From Verrucomicrobiota bacterium (GTDB lineage: Bacteria; Verrucomicrobiota; Verrucomicrobiia; Chthoniobacterales; UBA10450): a stretch of DNA of 38,433 nt. Below are positions 22,850 through 29,178 of this stretch, in pieces. A model generated the notes under the pieces. It was not told the origin of the DNA, searched no databases, and saw nothing but the letters and a program-made list of their open reading frames with translations. The position numbers were made by a program, and so were the translations under genes. The first letter of the stretch is position 1; the number at the start of each line of letters is the position of its first letter. The DNA is taken from positions 1 through 38,433 of the forward strand of contig QHNQ01000152.1 in assembly GCA_003218135.1 (NCBI GenBank), read 5' to 3'.

Positions 22850-23653
22850 TTAACCGCGGACGTTCGGGGCGGCAATATCTGCCGTCCAAGGGGCGGCTGC
22901 GCGAAGTAAGATGGATTTCGCCTCCAAGGGGCGGAGCTTCGGGAAGACGGAGAGCAACCGGGCGAGCAAACCACTAAATACCGGCGCCGCAAAGCTACTT
23001 CCAGTCATTTGCTTAATCGCACCCCGATTCCACGGGACTTCTATATCGACGCCGCGTGCCGCAAACTCGACAAGATTTCCCGGTTTGTAATAAAACCGAT
23101 GGTAGTCAGCCACTCGGGCCATGTTGACGGTGATGACGCTGGGAAAGTAGCCGGGCCACTCTGGCTTGGAGAAGTCGTCATTGTTGCAGGCCGAGACGAT
23201 GTGGACGCCGTGCAGATAAGCTTCATCAACCCACTCTTTGTATTGGAATATGTGCTGCGGCAGACCACAACCGAAACTGCAATTAAGAACTGCGTAACCG
23301 CGGTCAAACGCCTGCCGTACCCCCTCACGAATGATCGCCGTGCGGGAATCGAGGTGCTCACCCAAGACGCGTACGCTTCCGATTTCAGCATCAGGGGCGA
23401 TCGATCTGATGATGCTGGCGACAGCGGTGCCGTGGCCGAAAAGGTCGGTGCCATCGCCCGGCCGTGCCTCAACGTGCAGCCCCGCATCAACAACGTGAAT
23501 ATCGTCCCGAAGCTTTAAGCCGGATAAGCGAGGGTGGCTGATTTCGATTCCCGAATCAATGACGGCCACGCGTACGCCTCGCCCGGTTCCCTCGTGCAAT
23601 GCTCGAAGAGCCCGATCCAGCTGAATTACGCCACTACCGTCATCGTCCATCAC
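22850..23653 (-). CDS. Subtilisin-like (S8) serine protease without signal peptide
   Basis: The 267-residue protein is a compact S8 catalytic domain. The triad is Asp33 in VAVIDSGIEISHPRL, His74 in FGHGTAVASIIRSIAP and Ser220 in TGSSFAAPVFSGLLA; the oxyanion Asn is in VSACNNDD (157-158). There is no signal peptide and no inhibitory propeptide, so it should act in the cytoplasm. Small intracellular S8 enzymes of this kind occur in natural-peptide clusters, where they cut leader peptides, as well as in other contexts. It begins 3 nt after the GAF gene stop, and the whole run from the ABC exporter to this gene is on one strand. Its substrate is unknown; the two small CxxC peptides nearby are candidates. 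Confidence 0.92.
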   Translation of the reverse strand: MMDDDGSGVIQLDRALRALHEGTGRGVRVAVIDSGIEISHPRLSGLKLRDDIHVVDAGLHVEARPGDGTDLFGHGTAVASIIRSIAPDAEIGSVRVLGEHLDSRTAIIREGVRQAFDRGYAVLNCSFGCGLPQHIFQYKEWVDEAYLHGVHIVSACNNDDFSKPEWPGYFPSVITVNMARVADYHRFYYKPGNLVEFAARGVDIEVPWNRGAIKQMTGSSFAAPVFSGLLARLLSVFPKLRPLEAKSILLRAAAPWTADIAAPNVRG

Positions 23654-23656
23654 CTG

Positions 23657-24274
23657 TCAGACCCAACCAAGTGCCTGTTTGAACAGACGAAAATCGATTA
23701 GCTGACTTATCACCCCAATCCCTTTTCTAAAACTGTCCAGATCAGATCGCTCAAAGCCCAGCGGCTCATTGCCCACGAGAACGGGGCGACCGTCCTCGGA
23801 TGTAATGCTAGTCAACTGCACGCACGAAACAACACCGTGTAAGTGTTCGAGAATGTAAAATGGCACAACCATCATAGCGTAGGTGGTTTTGTGGGTGATC
23901 CGGTCGAGATTCGGACTATGTTCGGCATTTTTGAAGACTTGGTTCTCCACGACTGGCTGCTCGGTTGCTGCAACCATGCTCACAATCCCGCGAGTCAGTG
24001 GTTGCTTGAACCCAACAATCGTTTCGGCATCCGGCCCGCTATTGTACGCAACGATCAAGTGAGTCTTCGGATTATCTAGCAGCCAAATGCTACCCTCATC
24101 TGCTCCAACATGCTGAAACATGTCCTGAAGTATCTGCGATACGTGGGCCCCAGAAATGCTAAGAAAATTGGCTGGCGTAATGGCCCGCGAGAGCTCGGCT
24201 AAATAATCCTGGAGCAGCGGACGGCGCCTGGCGAGTTCAGGGTGCGGAAGAAAATTTGCTCTAACTGGCTGCAT
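23657..24274 (-). CDS. GAF domain protein
   Basis: The 205-residue protein has one GAF domain from about residue 35 to 195: a first helix ISGAHVSQILQDMFQHVGADEGSIWLLD, strands HLIVAYNSGP, the loop LTRGIVSMVAATEQPVVENQVF, strands YAMMVVPFYILEHLHGVVSCVQLTS, and the last helix LDSFRKGIGVISQLIDFRLF. GAF domains bind small ligands or mediate dimer contacts; no output domain such as a kinase or cyclase is attached, so it may act by protein contact. It lies between the L,D-transpeptidase fusion and the protease, with only 3 nt to the latter. The ligand cannot be inferred. Confidence 0.85.
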   Translation of the reverse strand: MQPVRANFLPHPELARRRPLLQDYLAELSRAITPANFLSISGAHVSQILQDMFQHVGADEGSIWLLDNPKTHLIVAYNSGPDAETIVGFKQPLTRGIVSMVAATEQPVVENQVFKNAEHSPNLDRITHKTTYAMMVVPFYILEHLHGVVSCVQLTSITSEDGRPVLVGNEPLGFERSDLDSFRKGIGVISQLIDFRLFKQALGWV

Positions 24275-24364
24275 TATCGTCGAGCAGCTGACCTCGTGAG
24301 TTCTTCCACAATTCGTTCATTAAGAAACCCGCGAAGAAAGCCGCTCGAAATCATACGGAATTTT

Positions 24365-25555
24365 TCATGCCTGTATAGTCACCGGCGTACCGACAGTAGC
24401 CGTTTGGAAAAGGAGCTTCGCAACTTGCTCCGGCAGCCGGACGCAGCCGTGTGACGCTGGGTATCCCGGGAGCTGACCAACGTGCAAGCCAAACGACATC
24501 CCGCTCAACCGAAGGAAATACTTCATCGGGCAGTGGTAGATGGTCGATACGTGATTCTTATCCTTCTCGCTAACAGTGTAACTGCCGGTGGGCGTTGCCC
24601 TCCCGTGGCGGCCAGAAGAAATCGGTGAGTCAATAGCCACATCGTTGTCGACCATCAGATAGACGCGTTGTTTGGAGATGCTGACTACGACACTGATATT
24701 TTGTGAAGTTGCTCTGTTAAGCACGTCCTCATTAATTTTGGCTGATTCTTGCTGTGCTGTCTGAACTTTTCGTTGTTTTGCAGCACTCAAATTCTGCAAA
24801 GTTGATTCCCGCTGTTTTGCGGCGCTCTGTTCTTGAGCGGGCCCGACGCTTTCAGTGCCAGCGCGCGCAACTGTCGCTGCAAAAGGCGCCGAACTGATGC
24901 CAAATAACACAATCGCGGCGGCCAACTCGCGCATGCCTCGCCCGGAAACTTCATCCTCGGCGGCAATGCCGATGATCCTGCAGGTTTGGAGCCGCTCATC
25001 GTCGATGCCGTACCGACCAAGCCCCGTCGTAGGACGGAGCCAAAAGCCAATGAGCGCGCCAGAAATCTCGTCGGCATTCTGCGACCAGCGAAAGATGGGA
25101 ATTATAGTGCTATCTTCCTGAGCAGCGAACGGCTCCGATACCTCAAACCGCCGCAAACGCGTTATCTCCTCGGCCAGAGCGTCGGCGATAGCGCCAGCTG
25201 AAGTAGGAAGATTGCCATGTAATTTTTGGCACAATTCTCGATCAATTCCATCGCTGTTCCACCAAACGAATTCAGATGATTCATCGATGCAAACCGTGCC
25301 TCCGTCGTCTGCTTGAGGACGCAAAAGCACCGATTCGAGTGTGACCTCCGACTCTCCCGTAAAAATTTCGAATTTCGAGGCGTCAGATTTCGCAAACCGG
25401 CACGCGAGCAAGGGTTTTGTCACCAGCTGATCAACACAGCCGAACAGATCCGGGGCGCGGCCGACCGGAACCTTCAGCGGCATGTCATCCTCACCTGGGA
25501 GCACATCTGCGGGGAGTAAGAACCGCAGTGTTTCTACGCCAAGACCCAATTTCAT
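24365..25555 (-). CDS. GAF-like domain fused through a membrane helix to an L,D-transpeptidase
   Basis: The C-terminal part (about 285-396) is a YkuD-type L,D-transpeptidase: SVVVSISKQRVYLMVDNDVAIDSPISSG, ATPTGSYTV, GLHVGQLPGYPASHGCVRLPEQ with the catalytic Cys371 and His358. Such enzymes cross-link or modify peptidoglycan in the periplasm. The first about 205 residues are not a signal peptide; their end (STIIPIFRWSQNADEISGAL then GIDDERLQTCRIIGIAAED) resembles the last strands and helix of a GAF domain, though weakly. A hydrophobic helix, MRELAAAIVLFGISSAPFAA (208-227), follows, then a Gln/Ser/Lys-rich coiled segment (about 240-280). An internal ATG at 24934 would make a normal secreted enzyme instead, so two products are possible. 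It starts 9 nt after the upstream small gene. Confidence 0.85.
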   Translation of the reverse strand: MKLGLGVETLRFLLPADVLPGEDDMPLKVPVGRAPDLFGCVDQLVTKPLLACRFAKSDASKFEIFTGESEVTLESVLLRPQADDGGTVCIDESSEFVWWNSDGIDRELCQKLHGNLPTSAGAIADALAEEITRLRRFEVSEPFAAQEDSTIIPIFRWSQNADEISGALIGFWLRPTTGLGRYGIDDERLQTCRIIGIAAEDEVSGRGMRELAAAIVLFGISSAPFAATVARAGTESVGPAQEQSAAKQRESTLQNLSAAKQRKVQTAQQESAKINEDVLNRATSQNISVVVSISKQRVYLMVDNDVAIDSPISSGRHGRATPTGSYTVSEKDKNHVSTIYHCPMKYFLRLSGMSFGLHVGQLPGYPASHGCVRLPEQVAKLLFQTATVGTPVTIQA

Positions 25556-25564
25556 TGCGATTGC

Positions 25565-25819
25565 CTATGCGATCGCCGGTCGCATGGGCCTGTGGCAGGC
25601 AAAACACACATAAAACGTGGCCGCTCGCGTTTCCTCAGTGTGATTAATTGCCCCGCACCAAGGACACTCGAACATGACTGAGTTCTCGGACGAGCGTCCG
25701 CGAACTTCCGGCTTAGCCGCACGCGGCGCGCGTGTTCCTTTAATCGCACCGGTCAGGTCCACGTCCCCCTCAGCCTTCTGGCCAGTAATTACTTCCACTG
25801 ATCTTTTTTTCGTACTCAT
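25565..25819 (-). CDS. Small double-CxxC peptide 1
   Basis: The 84-residue product has a hydrophilic N-terminal half (MSTKKRSVEVITGQKAEGDV and a basic/proline stretch) and a C-terminal zinc-ribbon-like module: CPWC (Cys52, Cys55), then EETRA, then Cys72 and Cys75 in YVCFACHRPM. The order C-x2-C-x6-7-EETRA-x4-5-Y-x-C-x2-C is shared with the 76-residue protein at 25958-26188, so the two are related. The last residues are RPMRPAIA, unlike the aromatic end of the other. It lies between the L,D-transpeptidase fusion and the other small gene, on the same strand. It may be a metal-binding regulator or a substrate of the neighbouring protease and exporter. I do not recognise a named family. Confidence 0.75.
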   Translation of the reverse strand: MSTKKRSVEVITGQKAEGDVDLTGAIKGTRAPRAAKPEVRGRSSENSVMFECPWCGAINHTEETRAATFYVCFACHRPMRPAIA

Positions 25820-25912
25820 ATTCGCTATCCGTTGAATCCCACTTCCTCCGCATCAACAGCCGTGGCCAACTTCATGTCATGTCAATGACCAGGCCCAGTA
25901 AACAACAAGCTG

Positions 25913-25938
25913 GGCGGCGCCGATTTTACGGCGCCGCC
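25913..25938 (-). terminator. Strong GC hairpin between the two small double-CxxC genes
   Basis: Perfect 10-bp arms GGCGGCGCCG and CGGCGCCGCC enclose a 6-nt AT loop. In the direction of transcription (minus strand) it is followed by a T-rich CTTGTTGTTT, so it may be a partial terminator or a 3'-end stabiliser. Its location after the first small gene suggests that the upstream peptide is made in excess over the downstream genes. Confidence 0.6.
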
Positions 25939-25957
25939 TGCCTGCTGCAGCTGAGCA

Positions 25958-26188
25958 TTAGAAGTAATAATTGCCACCGCAGTTCCCGCATGTGTACCAT
26001 TGATAGGCTCTCGTTTCTTCGACGATATAACGAAGAAACCCACAATGTGGGCAAACGACGTACCGCCCTCGCCGATAGCGGCCTTCGACTTCGCTTTCCT
26101 TCGGTGGCCCACCGGCGTCTTTTCCTCCCTCGCCCTCTTTTTTTCCTTTTTCTGCGACGATCGCTTCGATCGTTTTTGTTTCTGCCAT
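25958..26188 (-). CDS. Small double-CxxC peptide 2
   Basis: From the ATG at 26188 the product has 76 residues. The N-terminal half, MAETKTIEAIVAEKGKKEGE followed by GGKDAGGPPKESE, is highly charged and contains two GG pairs. The C-terminal half contains CPHC (Cys46, Cys49), EETRA (58-62), and Cys67/Cys70 in YTCGNCGGNYYF, with aromatic residues at the very end. The match of CPxCG, EETRA and YxCxxC to the neighbouring 84-residue protein shows common descent. A ribosome site AAAGGA lies 6 nt upstream of this ATG, better than for most genes here; an upstream in-frame start at 26245 overlaps a hairpin. Function unknown; zinc binding is likely from the Cys pairs. Confidence 0.75.
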   Translation of the reverse strand: MAETKTIEAIVAEKGKKEGEGGKDAGGPPKESEVEGRYRRGRYVVCPHCGFLRYIVEETRAYQWYTCGNCGGNYYF

Positions 26189-26194
26189 ATGCTG

Positions 26195-26200
26195 TCCTTT
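26195..26200 (-). promoter_or_regulatory. Shine-Dalgarno site fixing the start of small peptide 2
   Basis: On the minus strand AAAGGA is followed by 6 nt and the ATG at 26188. Most genes in this window lack a clear ribosome site, so this strong site suggests high translation of the small peptide and decides against the upstream start at 26245. Confidence 0.65.
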
Positions 26201-26221
26201 CTCTTTTTTGCTCTTTGTTGC

Positions 26222-26245
26222 TTGCCCGGCTAATGCACCGGGCAA
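26222..26245 (-). promoter_or_regulatory. Hairpin in the leader of small peptide 2
   Basis: TTGCCCGG and CCGGGCAA form a perfect 8-bp stem with an 8-nt loop, between the ABC exporter stop and the small peptide 2 start. It has no T-run directly after it in the direction of transcription (GCAACAAAG follows), so it may be a processing or stability element rather than a terminator. Confidence 0.45.
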
Positions 26246-26323
26246 AATTGATTAATTGTTCATAATTGCCTTCGTTTTATCAGAGATACGATTTTAGTGC
26301 CCGTACTTGCAATCTTTCTTTGA

Positions 26324-28306
26324 TCAGACCCGTGCAATGTAGGTTGCAATTTCTTTGGTCTTCGGGCCCATTGCGGCCACATAAAGTTGATAAAGCAAAC
26401 CATCGCGGGAGAGCAGTTCTTTCGCAGTCCCCTGCTCGACAACCCTGCCTTCATCGAGAACGACGAAGTAATCACAAAACTGGAGCAGCCAGTTAACGTC
26501 ATGGTCGACGACCATGACGGTCTTGCCGCGTGTGCCTTCACGGAGCATTTTGCGAATCTCGAATTTTTCCTCGTTATCCATGCCGACGGTTGGTTCGTCC
26601 AGAAACAGCAAAGCAGGGTCCCGCAGCAAACAGCGCGTAAGCGCCAATAGTTTGCGCTCACCGCCAGATAGCGTTTTACCGGCGGCCAAATTCGCGTCTA
26701 AAATTGAGCCCGTCTCCGACGGTGGAAGCTTTTGGCTGAGAATTCTCCAAACTCCCGTGCGTTCGCAGATGGCCTGAAGTTCCTCGTCGGTCGCATCCGG
26801 CTTTGCCATCCGCAGATTTTCTCGCACGGTGTCAAAAAAGAATGCCGGAAATTGCGACATCATTGCAATGCGCCGCCTTAGCGTATCGGGGGTGTAATCA
26901 GTTGTGGGCCGTCCGCCGACTATGATTTGGCCTCGCTGGGGATCATAAAATCGGAGCGCCAACTTGAAAAAGGTCGTCTTGCCCTGTCCCATCTTCGCTA
27001 CGAAGCCAGTCGTTTTTTCTGGCGGGACAGTGAAAGAGAGCTGATCAAAAATCTGCGAGGAGCCTGGCTCATAGGAGAAGACAACATTTCGCGCCTCGAT
27101 CGTGGGCGCTGCCACTTGCGTTTCCATTGTGCCGGGCTGCTCTTCCGTTTTGCTGCGGGATTCCAGAATGTTGATTACCCGCTCGATGTTTGGCCAGGAG
27201 CTTGAAGCCATTACGAGATAGCCAGAGAGCGCCTGAATGGGCGACATCAACATCGGTGCGAGCAGAAGGACTGCTACCACGTCGCCTGGGCGCGCGTTCC
27301 CGCCCGGCTTAAGGACGAGCCACACTGCGAATCCTAACAATGCAATCTCGATCAACAGCGTAGGCAATCGATTCAGCAGGTTAACAGTCTCAATCGTGAT
27401 TGTTTGTCGCAAACGCGCCTTGAGGGACTGGTCCAAACTCGCATTATGCTTCTCGCTAAAAATGCGTTCTGCTTCCATTGCCTGGATTTCTTCTGGGGAC
27501 TGCGTGGCGCCTGTGACAAGGCTCGACAAGGACAGCATGTAGGTCTGTACAGCCTTTGACGCGGTGCGAATACTGTCGCCGATCTTGCTGATGAGATAAG
27601 GCGAGAACAGCGCCAAACCCACGATCATCGGCGGGATTGCCCACGAGGGAAGCTCGACCCCGAAGATAGCGAGAGGTTCTTTGTGCAGTTGGACAAAATT
27701 GTAACTCACCAGGCACGTCGTTCCGGCGAGGACAACAAATTGCAGTATTGGATCGACAATAATCTGCCGAAGAGTCATCTCCGTCTCGATTGTCATTTGG
27801 TTGATAATTGCGTTTAGTTGGCCGGGATCGTAGTCGTGAAAAAACTCGGGCGATTGTCTGAGAACGCGATCGAACAGATTCGTGCGCAAGCGGTTCGAGA
27901 GTAGTGCGTCCATTTTCGTCGTCACCCATCTCAAGGGAATGGAAAAGCCAACACCGCAAATCGCGAGGAAAACCCAGCCAAGATAAGTCCCGACGAGGCG
28001 ATCAGAGCTGCTAGTACTAACTTGGTTGGTGAGGTAGCCGAAAAGTTGGATTATACCGCGATCAATTGCTTCGTGGGTCAAAGAGAGGATCGCATATAAC
28101 AATACCAAGCCGCGGCAGACACCGATAAGCTTCCAGCCGAAACTCAAAAGGGTTTTCCATTTTAGAGAAGAGATAGGTTCGACAGGTTGTCGATACATCT
28201 TGGCCGCAGGTGATCCGCTGGGGACCGGGCCGCCTGGGAACTGAGAAAGCGTGGGCCGCGAAGCGATCTTTGTCGCAGCCGGAGACGGCAGATGCCGACT
28301 GTTCAT
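26324..28306 (-). CDS. ABC exporter, fused membrane and ATPase domains
   Basis: This 660-residue half-transporter has a type I exporter membrane domain (about 55-375) with several helices, among them GLVLLYAILSLTHEA, GWVFLAICGVGFSI and ILQFVVLAGTTCLVS, and an ATPase domain (about 400-640). Walker A reads AKMGQGKTT (Lys443), with Ala where the first Gly is usual. The signature is LSGGE (546-550) rather than LSGGQ. Walker B is LLFLDEP, the D-loop VGMD and the switch His is in VVDHD (602). There is no peptidase C39 domain. The start at 28306 is the longest; an ATG at 28198 (MYRQPVEPISSL) is more compact and leaves a clearer divergent promoter region. It is the first gene of the minus-strand run that includes two small CxxC peptides and a protease, so peptide export is an attractive but unproven role. 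Confidence 0.9.
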   Translation of the reverse strand: MNSRHLPSPAATKIASRPTLSQFPGGPVPSGSPAAKMYRQPVEPISSLKWKTLLSFGWKLIGVCRGLVLLYAILSLTHEAIDRGIIQLFGYLTNQVSTSSSDRLVGTYLGWVFLAICGVGFSIPLRWVTTKMDALLSNRLRTNLFDRVLRQSPEFFHDYDPGQLNAIINQMTIETEMTLRQIIVDPILQFVVLAGTTCLVSYNFVQLHKEPLAIFGVELPSWAIPPMIVGLALFSPYLISKIGDSIRTASKAVQTYMLSLSSLVTGATQSPEEIQAMEAERIFSEKHNASLDQSLKARLRQTITIETVNLLNRLPTLLIEIALLGFAVWLVLKPGGNARPGDVVAVLLLAPMLMSPIQALSGYLVMASSSWPNIERVINILESRSKTEEQPGTMETQVAAPTIEARNVVFSYEPGSSQIFDQLSFTVPPEKTTGFVAKMGQGKTTFFKLALRFYDPQRGQIIVGGRPTTDYTPDTLRRRIAMMSQFPAFFFDTVRENLRMAKPDATDEELQAICERTGVWRILSQKLPPSETGSILDANLAAGKTLSGGERKLLALTRCLLRDPALLFLDEPTVGMDNEEKFEIRKMLREGTRGKTVMVVDHDVNWLLQFCDYFVVLDEGRVVEQGTAKELLSRDGLLYQLYVAAMGPKTKEIATYIARV

Positions 28307-28370
28307 ATTTTATTGTGGCAGAGCGCTGTGCCCGTTTTCCCTTCAGCACCAGAGGCGGCGATGTTGGGTT

Positions 28371-28385
28371 TTTGCCATTGGCAAA
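28371..28385. promoter_or_regulatory. 15-bp palindrome in the divergent exporter/methyltransferase spacer
   Basis: TTTGCCA and TGGCAAA are perfect 7-bp arms around a single T. It lies between the starts of two divergent genes, followed by AT-rich sequence (CTTAATTTTATTC), which is the expected position of an operator. No regulator gene is next to it. Confidence 0.4.
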
Positions 28386-28494
28386 TCAAGACTTAATTTT
28401 ATTCAGTCGCCGCGCGTCATTTTCCACTGCAATAAACGCCACGTTGTCGAGACACGACAGTTTGCCTCATCGTACCGCGCCAGTAGAATCGGCC

Positions 28495-29178
28495 GTGGTT
28501 ACTCAGCCGAATTCAGCTCTGAGCGCCTCAGCTCACGTGAATCAGGTGCTCGAGTTGCTGCGCAAACTGATGGAGTACCGCAGCTCGGACGTACGCCTTC
28601 GATTAGAAAAAGTCGGGCAGGCCGCCTCCATGTTGCACATGGATGTTCTGCTTCTCATCTATCACTTCGCCAGGTTCAGCCCGGGAAATGTCTTGGAGAT
28701 TGGTCCTTATGTCGGAGGATCGACGATTGCCGCAGCGTATGGCGCGCGCGAATCCAGTGTGCCGAAAAAAATTGTTAGTATCGAGGCGGGAGGAAAATTG
28801 AAACATTTCCGTCTCTCAAGCAGCCACATCATCAAAGATTTGAAGAAGAACCTCGCTCGTTTTGGAGTTGCGGAAGATGTTACGCTGATCAATGGGCGCT
28901 CCTTCGACGAAGCAACCATACCAGAAGTTCGTCAGGCCATGGATGGTGGCGAAGTAGGGCTCTTTATTTTCGATGCGGACAACAATGTGCGACGCGACCT
29001 GGATTGCTACGGCGATTTACTCGCCGACCGTTGCTGGGTCATAATAGATGATTACCTCGGCCCGGCGAAAGCAGCACCGATTCGGGCACAGGTCGATGCA
29101 CTGGTATCGGAGGGTCGACTTCTCCCATTTGGGTATTACGGATGGGGTACTTGGGTCGGCCAGTGGCAGCGCGCATAG
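28495..29178 (+). CDS. Class I SAM-dependent methyltransferase
   Basis: The core has motif I, VLEIGPYVGGSTIAAAYGA, then VSIEAGG, an acidic strand VGLFIFDADNNV, and CWVIIDDYLGPAKAAP. This is the pattern of Methyltransf_24/O-methyltransferase-like enzymes that often act on small molecules or glycans. No ATG precedes the fold closely: a GTG at 28495 gives about 227 residues and is preferred, because the longer frame from the ATG at 28210 runs antisense to the exporter and is not protein-like. It is divergent from the exporter gene and may belong to the same cassette, but it could also be independent. The substrate is unknown. Confidence 0.8.
   Translation: MVTQPNSALSASAHVNQVLELLRKLMEYRSSDVRLRLEKVGQAASMLHMDVLLLIYHFARFSPGNVLEIGPYVGGSTIAAAYGARESSVPKKIVSIEAGGKLKHFRLSSSHIIKDLKKNLARFGVAEDVTLINGRSFDEATIPEVRQAMDGGEVGLFIFDADNNVRRDLDCYGDLLADRCWVIIDDYLGPAKAAPIRAQVDALVSEGRLLPFGYYGWGTWVGQWQRA

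Follow-up and report, generated by a model that had tools for sequence, protein, structure and literature searches.

We analysed a 38,433-nucleotide (nt) stretch of DNA (hereafter the window; contig QHNQ01000152.1, positions 1 to 38,433 of the forward strand) from a soil Verrucomicrobiota bacterium (assembly GCA_003218135.1). Between positions 22850 and 28306, it carries six minus-strand genes that encode, in order of transcription, an ABC exporter, two small CxxC peptides, an L,D-transpeptidase (LDT), a GAF-domain protein, and an S8 subtilase. The initial annotation had read these genes as a peptide maturation and export cassette. Its gene order and coordinates, with spacers of 3, 90, 9, 138, and 135 nt, are confirmed, and its general direction was right; the role of the LDT, the inclusion of a methyltransferase, and the gene set are revised here. 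We find that the cluster is an uncommon system: its parts are of known kinds, and their combination was not found in the open-access literature.

Genes and features of the cluster

All four large families (S8, GAF, YkuD-type LDT, and ABC exporter) are supported by both Pfam and NCBIfam. The S8 gene (22850-23653) encodes a leaderless protein of 267 amino acids (aa) that matches PF00082 (E 7.5e-28, 98.1 bits) and carries the catalytic triad D33, H74, and S220, which makes it a subtilase; a family alignment, an alignment with subtilisin BPN', and residue counts also underlie this call. Directly upstream lies the gene for the 205-aa GAF-domain protein (23657-24274), the constant partner of S8 and a proposed sensor or regulator, with a match to PF01590 (E 1.2e-5) above the gathering score of that family and one to PF13185 under it. 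The 660-aa exporter (26324-28306) is of the MsbA type. Only PF00664 and PF00005 score above gathering, with no C39 peptidase domain, and the protein is the proposed exporter of the cut peptides. Of a palindrome placed upstream of the cluster, a short imperfect candidate can be seen at 28317-28332, upstream of the ABC gene, and we do not count the element as confirmed.

The two small peptides had been described as related, and this was borne out: a search with peptide A recovers peptide B in the same genome (E 0.002), and a family profile built with both included finds them at E 3.0e-19 and 1.8e-18, respectively. Peptide A (76 aa, 25958-26188) consists of an unstructured leader (residues 1-40) and a ribbon core (41-76). 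Its AlphaFold2 model has a mean predicted local distance difference test score (pLDDT) of 63 and a predicted template modelling score of 0.38; residues up to 40 are unstructured and of low confidence, and four strands lie between residues 41 and 75 in a block with pLDDT 76-88. Together with its cysteine knuckles, these strands make a zinc ribbon the predicted fold of the core (residues 46-73, 25970-26053), a segment also defined by the peptide alignment. No structure in the PDB matches the model below E 0.001. The top match is the ZitP zinc finger (E 0.84, probability 0.89, not significant by E value), followed largely by ribosomal proteins. Peptide B (84 aa, 25565-25819), identified as an open reading frame (ORF) that fits the family profile, has two CxxC knuckles, and the peptide alignment places its zinc-ribbon-like core at C52-C75 (25595-25666).

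This peptide family is amplified in genus g6, where eight genomes each contain four to nine matches at E < 1e-7. In several members, CxxD or DxxC replaces the first CxxC (those at loci L062, L065, L066, L069, L071, L176, L178, L179, and L180, and L033:9953-10195); zinc binding may therefore vary within the family. The ribbon core is also found in a much larger protein of 1758 aa (L171:1760-7036, genome G068, contig C29), in which an ATPase-like region, WD40-like repeats, and TPRs can be recognized by eye.

The LDT (396 aa, 24365-25555) has a C-terminal YkuD domain (E 1.2e-19, 71.8 bits) with the active-site motif SHGCVR, which identifies it as an L,D-transpeptidase; Verrucomicrobiales relatives in the alignment of 13 LDTs read SAGCIR. 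The catalytic domain is the only part modelled confidently by AlphaFold2, and pLDDT is below 50 over residues 1-249. A GAF-like N-terminal domain had been assigned to this protein, an assignment that we do not confirm, as the region lacks a Pfam GAF match and a confident model. LDT residues 1-201 (24953-25555) form an N-terminal domain with no Pfam match, and we propose that this domain retains the enzyme in the cytosol until it is cut.

A tag shared by three S8-linked families

A relaxed motif, [DE]-[VAI]-x-[GA]-[RH], is common to three unrelated families linked to S8: the peptides, the LDTs, and a small tag-bearing protein that we call SUP. SUP adjoins a sigma-like gene (SIG) on another contig of this genome (C41), and both belong to the system. 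Four proteins of these families are tagged in frame in the genome itself: peptide A (EVEGR, residues 33-37, 26078-26092), peptide B (EVRGR, residues 38-42, 25694-25708), the LDT (EVSGR, residues 202-206, 24938-24952), and SUP. Among distinct sequences, the motif occurs in 50 of 54 peptides (1.4 expected by shuffling) and 38 of 46 SUPs (2.2 expected); outside the seed loci, 26 of 31 SUPs have it (1.3 expected). It is present in all 15 full-length LDTs and in 16 of 17 distinct LDT strings, one of which is a fragment of the window LDT, and the sole miss is a 119-aa piece.

Other families of the same loci behave differently. The strict form, EV[GSATE]G[RH], is absent from the SIG, GAF, S8, ABC, cyclase, CHAT, DegP, and CobW_C proteins, and the relaxed form is near its shuffled rate in SIG, GAF, ABC, cyclase, and CobW_C. 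Only 2 of 845 other locus genes of at least 150 aa contain the strict form, one of them a 151-aa protein at L128 that later became a candidate client; a third such protein (145 aa) falls below the size limit. Of 98 distinct S8 proteins, 58 contain the relaxed tag (17.5 expected), an excess that, by our reading of the sequences, probably reflects the catalytic D-x-F-G-H-G-T of the protease itself, and the family was left out of the tag count.

The tag has a regular position in each family. In 49 of 50 tagged peptides, a charged leader is followed by E-[VA]-x-[GA]-[RH] and then, 5-10 residues on, by the first ribbon ligand. Behind the tag, all 15 full-length LDTs carry, in order, G-x-[RK]-E, the 14-mer of highest hydrophobicity in the whole protein (mean hydropathy 1.9-2.3), and A-x-A, which sits 19-24 residues past the proposed cut and is invariant (A230 and A232) in the alignment of 13. 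LDT tags start at residues 182-205, or at 346 in a 555-aa call at L172 whose start is uncertain. This L172 LDT (the same as that at L162) comes from a genome added once the motif was fixed, and it fits the layout. In the window LDT, residues 207-232 (24860-24937) comprise the n-region GMRE, the hydrophobic run, and A-x-A. Judged from sequence, the arrangement as a whole is that of a secretion signal hidden by a preceding domain. The initial annotation had taken the LDT as a pointer to cell-wall attachment or defence of the wall; rather than indicating that the peptides are attached to the wall, the LDT looks like a further substrate of the protease.

The pocket of the subtilase suggests how such a tag could be read. 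In the S8 profile alignment, E165 aligns with Gly166 of BPN', at the base of the S1 pocket. Gly166 forms the bottom of S1 in BPN', and Asp at this position moves preference towards Lys at P1; SUB1 accepts aliphatic residues in its S4 pocket and nothing but Ala or Gly at P2 (PMC3378952). Written as subsites, the tag has V (or A or I) at P4, G or A at P2, and R or H at P1, and the near-invariant Glu at subtilisin position 166 would suit a basic P1 residue. E165 is present in 42 of the 46 loci L080-L125 (three have V, one a gap) and in 17 of 19 further loci (one V, one gap); the V165 proteases are those of L114, L123, L124, and L049. Counting distinct, aligned SUP sequences, the tag stands at the aligned place in 35 of 37 SUPs from E165 loci and in none of 4 from V165 loci (Fisher test, p 1.5e-4).

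Distribution and gene neighbourhood

We find that peptides and S8 co-occur among 147 related genomes, including the source genome. S8 orthologs (E <= 1e-20) were detected in 18 genomes. The peptide profile was cut at E < 1e-7, which leaves 16 genomes; the next match (1.2e-6) lies inside an 818-aa frame, and weaker matches were dropped (at E <= 0.01, as many as 58 genomes show at least one). A strong match within a 1764-aa frame of G068 was handled separately. Peptides and S8 are both present in 14 genomes, peptides alone in 2, S8 alone in 4, and neither in 127 (Fisher test, p 2.6e-14), a comparison in which the profile is not fully independent of S8, because it includes some peptides first seen beside S8. 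With peptide A alone as the query, 13 genomes had a match at E < 1e-3, and 11 of these had S8. In a phylum-wide draw of 387 genomes, again including the source genome, S8 (E <= 1e-40) occurs in six and peptides (E <= 1e-6) in two, both with S8. The initial annotation had named peptides that usually occur without the exporter or the protease as the pattern that would speak against it; the outcome was in its favour, with S8 in 14 of 16 peptide genomes.

A wider genome scan yielded the best 80 S8 loci. Of these, L080-L124 (E <= 2e-55) are labelled Verrucomicrobiota, L125 is labelled Acidobacteria, and the other 34 are, by their titles, 20 Chloroflexota, 9 Actinomycetota, and 5 others. Loci were chosen by similarity to S8 or the peptides, not to GAF. 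The window, the relatives, and L080-L125 together give 63 distinct S8 genes, 61 of them with at least 700 nt upstream, and GAF lies directly upstream of S8 in 59 of these 61 (overlapping it in 46 of the 59, by longest-ORF starts). The two exceptions are L045, in which the ORF called as S8 extends into GAF, and L122, in which GAF lies on the opposite strand.

The remaining genes are linked more loosely. Of 54 distinct peptides, 23 have a same-strand ABC gene within 1.5 kilobases (kb) upstream. In 12 other loci, the LDT gene sits immediately downstream of S8, and no peptide was found in the stretches examined there. SIG has a match to sigma region 2 (E 6.4e-5) just under the gathering score. Of 46 distinct SUPs, 34 are encoded behind SIG and 26 before GAF (18 show both arrangements and 4 neither); the SUP of L032, the sole member scanned, has no Pfam match at E 0.1 and hence none to an anti-sigma family. 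L032, from the same genus, carries a divergent cyclase, a sigma-like gene, SUP, GAF, S8, ABC, four peptides, and an LDT in one stretch, along with further S8-like pieces. Much of the gene order recurs in L032, in L033, and in the Acidobacteria-labelled L125, which likewise favours the initial annotation, against which a gene order conserved in no relative would have counted. Locus L090, from Chthoniobacter flavus Ellin428, carries GAF, S8, and a tagged SUP. Three tandem SUP paralogs, most of them tagged, stand behind the sigma-like gene in L036, L037, L084, and L091.

The divergent methyltransferase on the plus strand, originally counted as part of the cassette, is not a member. Its start at 28210 is probably wrong: its closest relatives (68-81% identity) align from residues 85-101, which makes a GTG at 28495 the likely start (28495-29178). 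Methyltransferase matches occur in 54 of the 147 relatives (32 of them in the same genus, besides the source genome), and S8 is found in 9 of these 54; none of the 10 genomes with close matches (68-81% identity) has S8. Since its distribution does not follow that of S8, we regard this gene as an unrelated neighbour.

A proposed cytosolic processing system and its alternatives

On balance, we think it probable that a GAF-controlled cytosolic subtilase cuts after the shared tag and thereby frees the ribbon peptides, unmasks the secretion signal of a wall enzyme, and processes a sigma-linked regulator. In this scheme, the GAF protein would control the activity of the paired leaderless subtilase, which, judging from the motif and the S1 residue, would read P5-P1 as [DE]-[VAI]-x-[GA]-[RH] and cut after the basic residue. 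Cleavage of the peptides would remove the unstructured leader, and the zinc-ribbon microprotein so freed (39 or 42 residues) would leave the cell through the adjacent ABC exporter. Cleavage of the LDT would remove its N-terminal domain and expose a new N-terminus (GMREL-AAAIVLFG...ARA) that resembles an ordinary signal peptide, so that the LDT would reach the wall only once the protease had acted. Cleavage of SUP, the weakest step of the scheme, would tie the same protease to transcription.

The nearest parallel that has been worked out is QhpE/QhpF, in which a cytosolic subtilisin-like protease trims the leader of a small Cys-containing subunit, which is then exported by an ABC transporter of the same operon (PMC7876137). 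The scheme shares the cytosolic subtilase, leader removal, and ABC export with that pathway. It differs in having a GAF partner and several unrelated tagged proteins, and in lacking a radical SAM enzyme or flavoenzyme among the seven genes scanned; likewise, no QhpD-type radical SAM protein or QhpC substrate was matched among these seven proteins. The S8 scores 89.9 bits against the QhpE equivalog NF049966 (cut-off 165), 102 bits against its best NCBIfam match, the type VII secretion system S8 protease mycosin (TIGR03921, cut-off 278.75), and 31.4 bits against the cyanobactin protease PatA (TIGR03895, cut-off 421.05), thus reaching none of the three cut-offs. No ESX protein is among the seven scanned. 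Double-glycine/C39 processing, sortase LPXTG sorting, and PEP-CTERM each join one protease and one short tag to many client proteins. The enzyme proposed here differs from these in being a soluble subtilase whose tag precedes either a core or an internal signal-peptide-like segment. Compared with YkuD L,D-transpeptidases, the LDT shares the catalytic domain with SHGCVR and has in addition an N-terminal domain and the internal tagged segment. This gene set is not described in the available part of eLife 52696.

Several observations weigh against the proposed scheme. Cleavage and export are predictions from sequence. No more than 20 of 33 peptides and 2 of 14 LDTs carry the strict tag (the LDTs without it read E[VI]xAH), and counts are high only with the relaxed form. 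Across the genome, the EVxGR DNA pattern shows no enrichment, with 66 matches versus 105 for a reversed control, so that the tag alone is not diagnostic, and on these counts we rejected it as a genome-wide finder. Three of the 66 fall in the 6.3-kb cassette (0.15 expected if evenly spread, a post hoc comparison) and one in SUP; the window contains two more, neither of which is read in frame by an ORF of at least 60 aa. Two distinct SUPs (L122 and L047) lack the tag despite an E165 protease. E165 supports a basic P1 residue and does not decide which one, because Verrucomicrobiota proteases with E165 accompany both R and H; furthermore, 33 of 34 proteases from other phyla have S or T at this position, and the small proteins near them end their tag in H. 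Peptides occur without a detected S8 in G068 (93% complete) and G123 (89%), and S8 occurs without peptides in G117, G131, G144, and G145. No ABC gene lies upstream within 1.5 kb of 31 of the 54 distinct peptides, and solitary peptides adjoin unrelated genes. The 1758-aa G068 protein ends in the ribbon core of the peptide family (CxxD/CxxC) without the tag, which means that the core can exist without this processing. Lastly, the shuffled expectations and Fisher tests overstate independence, because the compared sequences are related.

Among the alternatives, an intracellular signalling or defence-like conflict system is unlikely, though the likeliest of them. Here, a cyclic-nucleotide or stress signal would act through GAF on S8, the cut ribbons would serve as internal adaptors or effectors, and export would be secondary. 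Neighbours in relatives are suggestive of such a role, as they include a TPR-S protein with a class III cyclase, CHAT-TPR, CHASE2-cyclase, and TIR-SH3 proteins, and the 1758-aa WD40-like protein that carries the ribbon core at its C-terminus matches a PADLOC candidate model at its N-terminus (E 4.3e-10). However, PADLOC matches the S8 only to a generic model for subtilases and, more weakly, to IetS, matches the ATPase part of the ABC exporter, and finds nothing for GAF, LDT, SIG, SUP, or cyclase. The signalling neighbours were not identified among those window genes that were scanned, the exporter often adjoins the peptides (23 of 54), and an LDT works outside the cytosol.

It is also rather improbable that the hydrophobic segment of the LDT is a plain membrane anchor and that export of the enzyme needs no cut. 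The topology would be the same with an internal signal anchor, but the terminal A-x-A is invariant in 13 LDTs and the tag precedes the segment at a nearly fixed distance. We give still less weight to a cassette for a secreted bacteriocin or signal of the kind made as ribosomally synthesized and post-translationally modified peptides (RiPPs), with S8 as a leader peptidase alone and the LDT as an immunity factor or bystander. The leader and core layout fits that of a RiPP precursor, with processing predicted, and both the amplification of the peptide family and the ABC gene beside the peptides are in keeping with it. Yet the seven genes scanned with Pfam and NCBIfam include no modifying enzyme, as had been noted from the outset, and the LDT is tagged in 12 loci where no peptide was found, as is SUP. 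Least probable is a tag that, instead of being cut, directs docking or degradation through GAF, S8, or another factor: cleavage is predicted and SUP would lose only about 20 residues, but an aliphatic P4, small P2, and basic P1 are what a subtilase with an acid at 166 should prefer, and the cut would fall exactly where the signal-peptide-like segment starts.

If tag-directed cleavage by the subtilase is correct, a cytosolic protease would control whether a wall enzyme is exported, through exposure of its signal peptide, and we found no description of this type of secretion control in the open-access literature. A family of unannotated small Verrucomicrobiota proteins would also gain a function and a readable tag, and the substrates of the widespread GAF-S8 pair would become predictable from sequence. 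More tentatively, and with rather less confidence than in the cleavage itself, we suggest that this may be a new cytosolic protease-tag system, in which a GAF-gated subtilase and one tag control wall-enzyme release, dispersed zinc-ribbon microproteins, and a sigma-linked switch, and which related tags (DVEGH, often repeated, and EVVAH) would extend to Chloroflexota and to single loci elsewhere.

Small ORFs with DVEGH stand beside S8 in nine Chloroflexota loci (L127, L129, L140, L141, L142, L147, L149, L152, and L153), singly or repeated, with up to five copies in one 84-aa protein (L127). EVVAH occurs near S8 in L131 and L137 (Anaerolineales) and in L156 (labelled Deltaproteobacteria), EVTGH in L128, and DVQAH in L126 (Actinomycetota). 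Across the 34 loci of other phyla, five variants (these four and DVEAH) were found in ORFs of at most 250 aa within 3 kb of S8 in 16 ORFs from 14 loci, that is, 16 ORFs in 174 kb versus 1 in 250 kb beyond, a count that is descriptive, because the variants were chosen after the sequences had been seen. By profile, GAF precedes S8 in 5 of 31 of these loci, a lower bound because the gene before S8 in L127 and L128 clusters with GAF by BLAST. A text search for DVEGH returned no paper on bacteria by title.

Other genes recur beside the GAF-S8 pair in addition to SIG. A fusion of TPR-S and a class III cyclase (L032:2880-4817 and L036:11758-13803) might supply GAF with a nucleotide ligand. Directly behind S8, seven loci of one genus encode a CobW_C protein that has a His-rich tail (L038:10419-11663 and relatives); its N-terminus seems, by eye, to lack a normal P-loop, and the protein may serve zinc supply for the ribbons. 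A TIR-SH3 protein is located next to the system in the closest relative (L032:13472-14584). Around the solitary peptides, ten of which had their neighbours scanned, we see no common theme besides GH25-like genes in four loci of one genus (L054, L055, L057, and L060, Pfam-checked in the L057 member). In L034, L038, L039, L041, L042, and L043, the S8 has a proline-rich C-terminus with R-x-G-[RK]-P-P-P, which is faintly tag-like and is possibly a self-processing or inhibitory tail.

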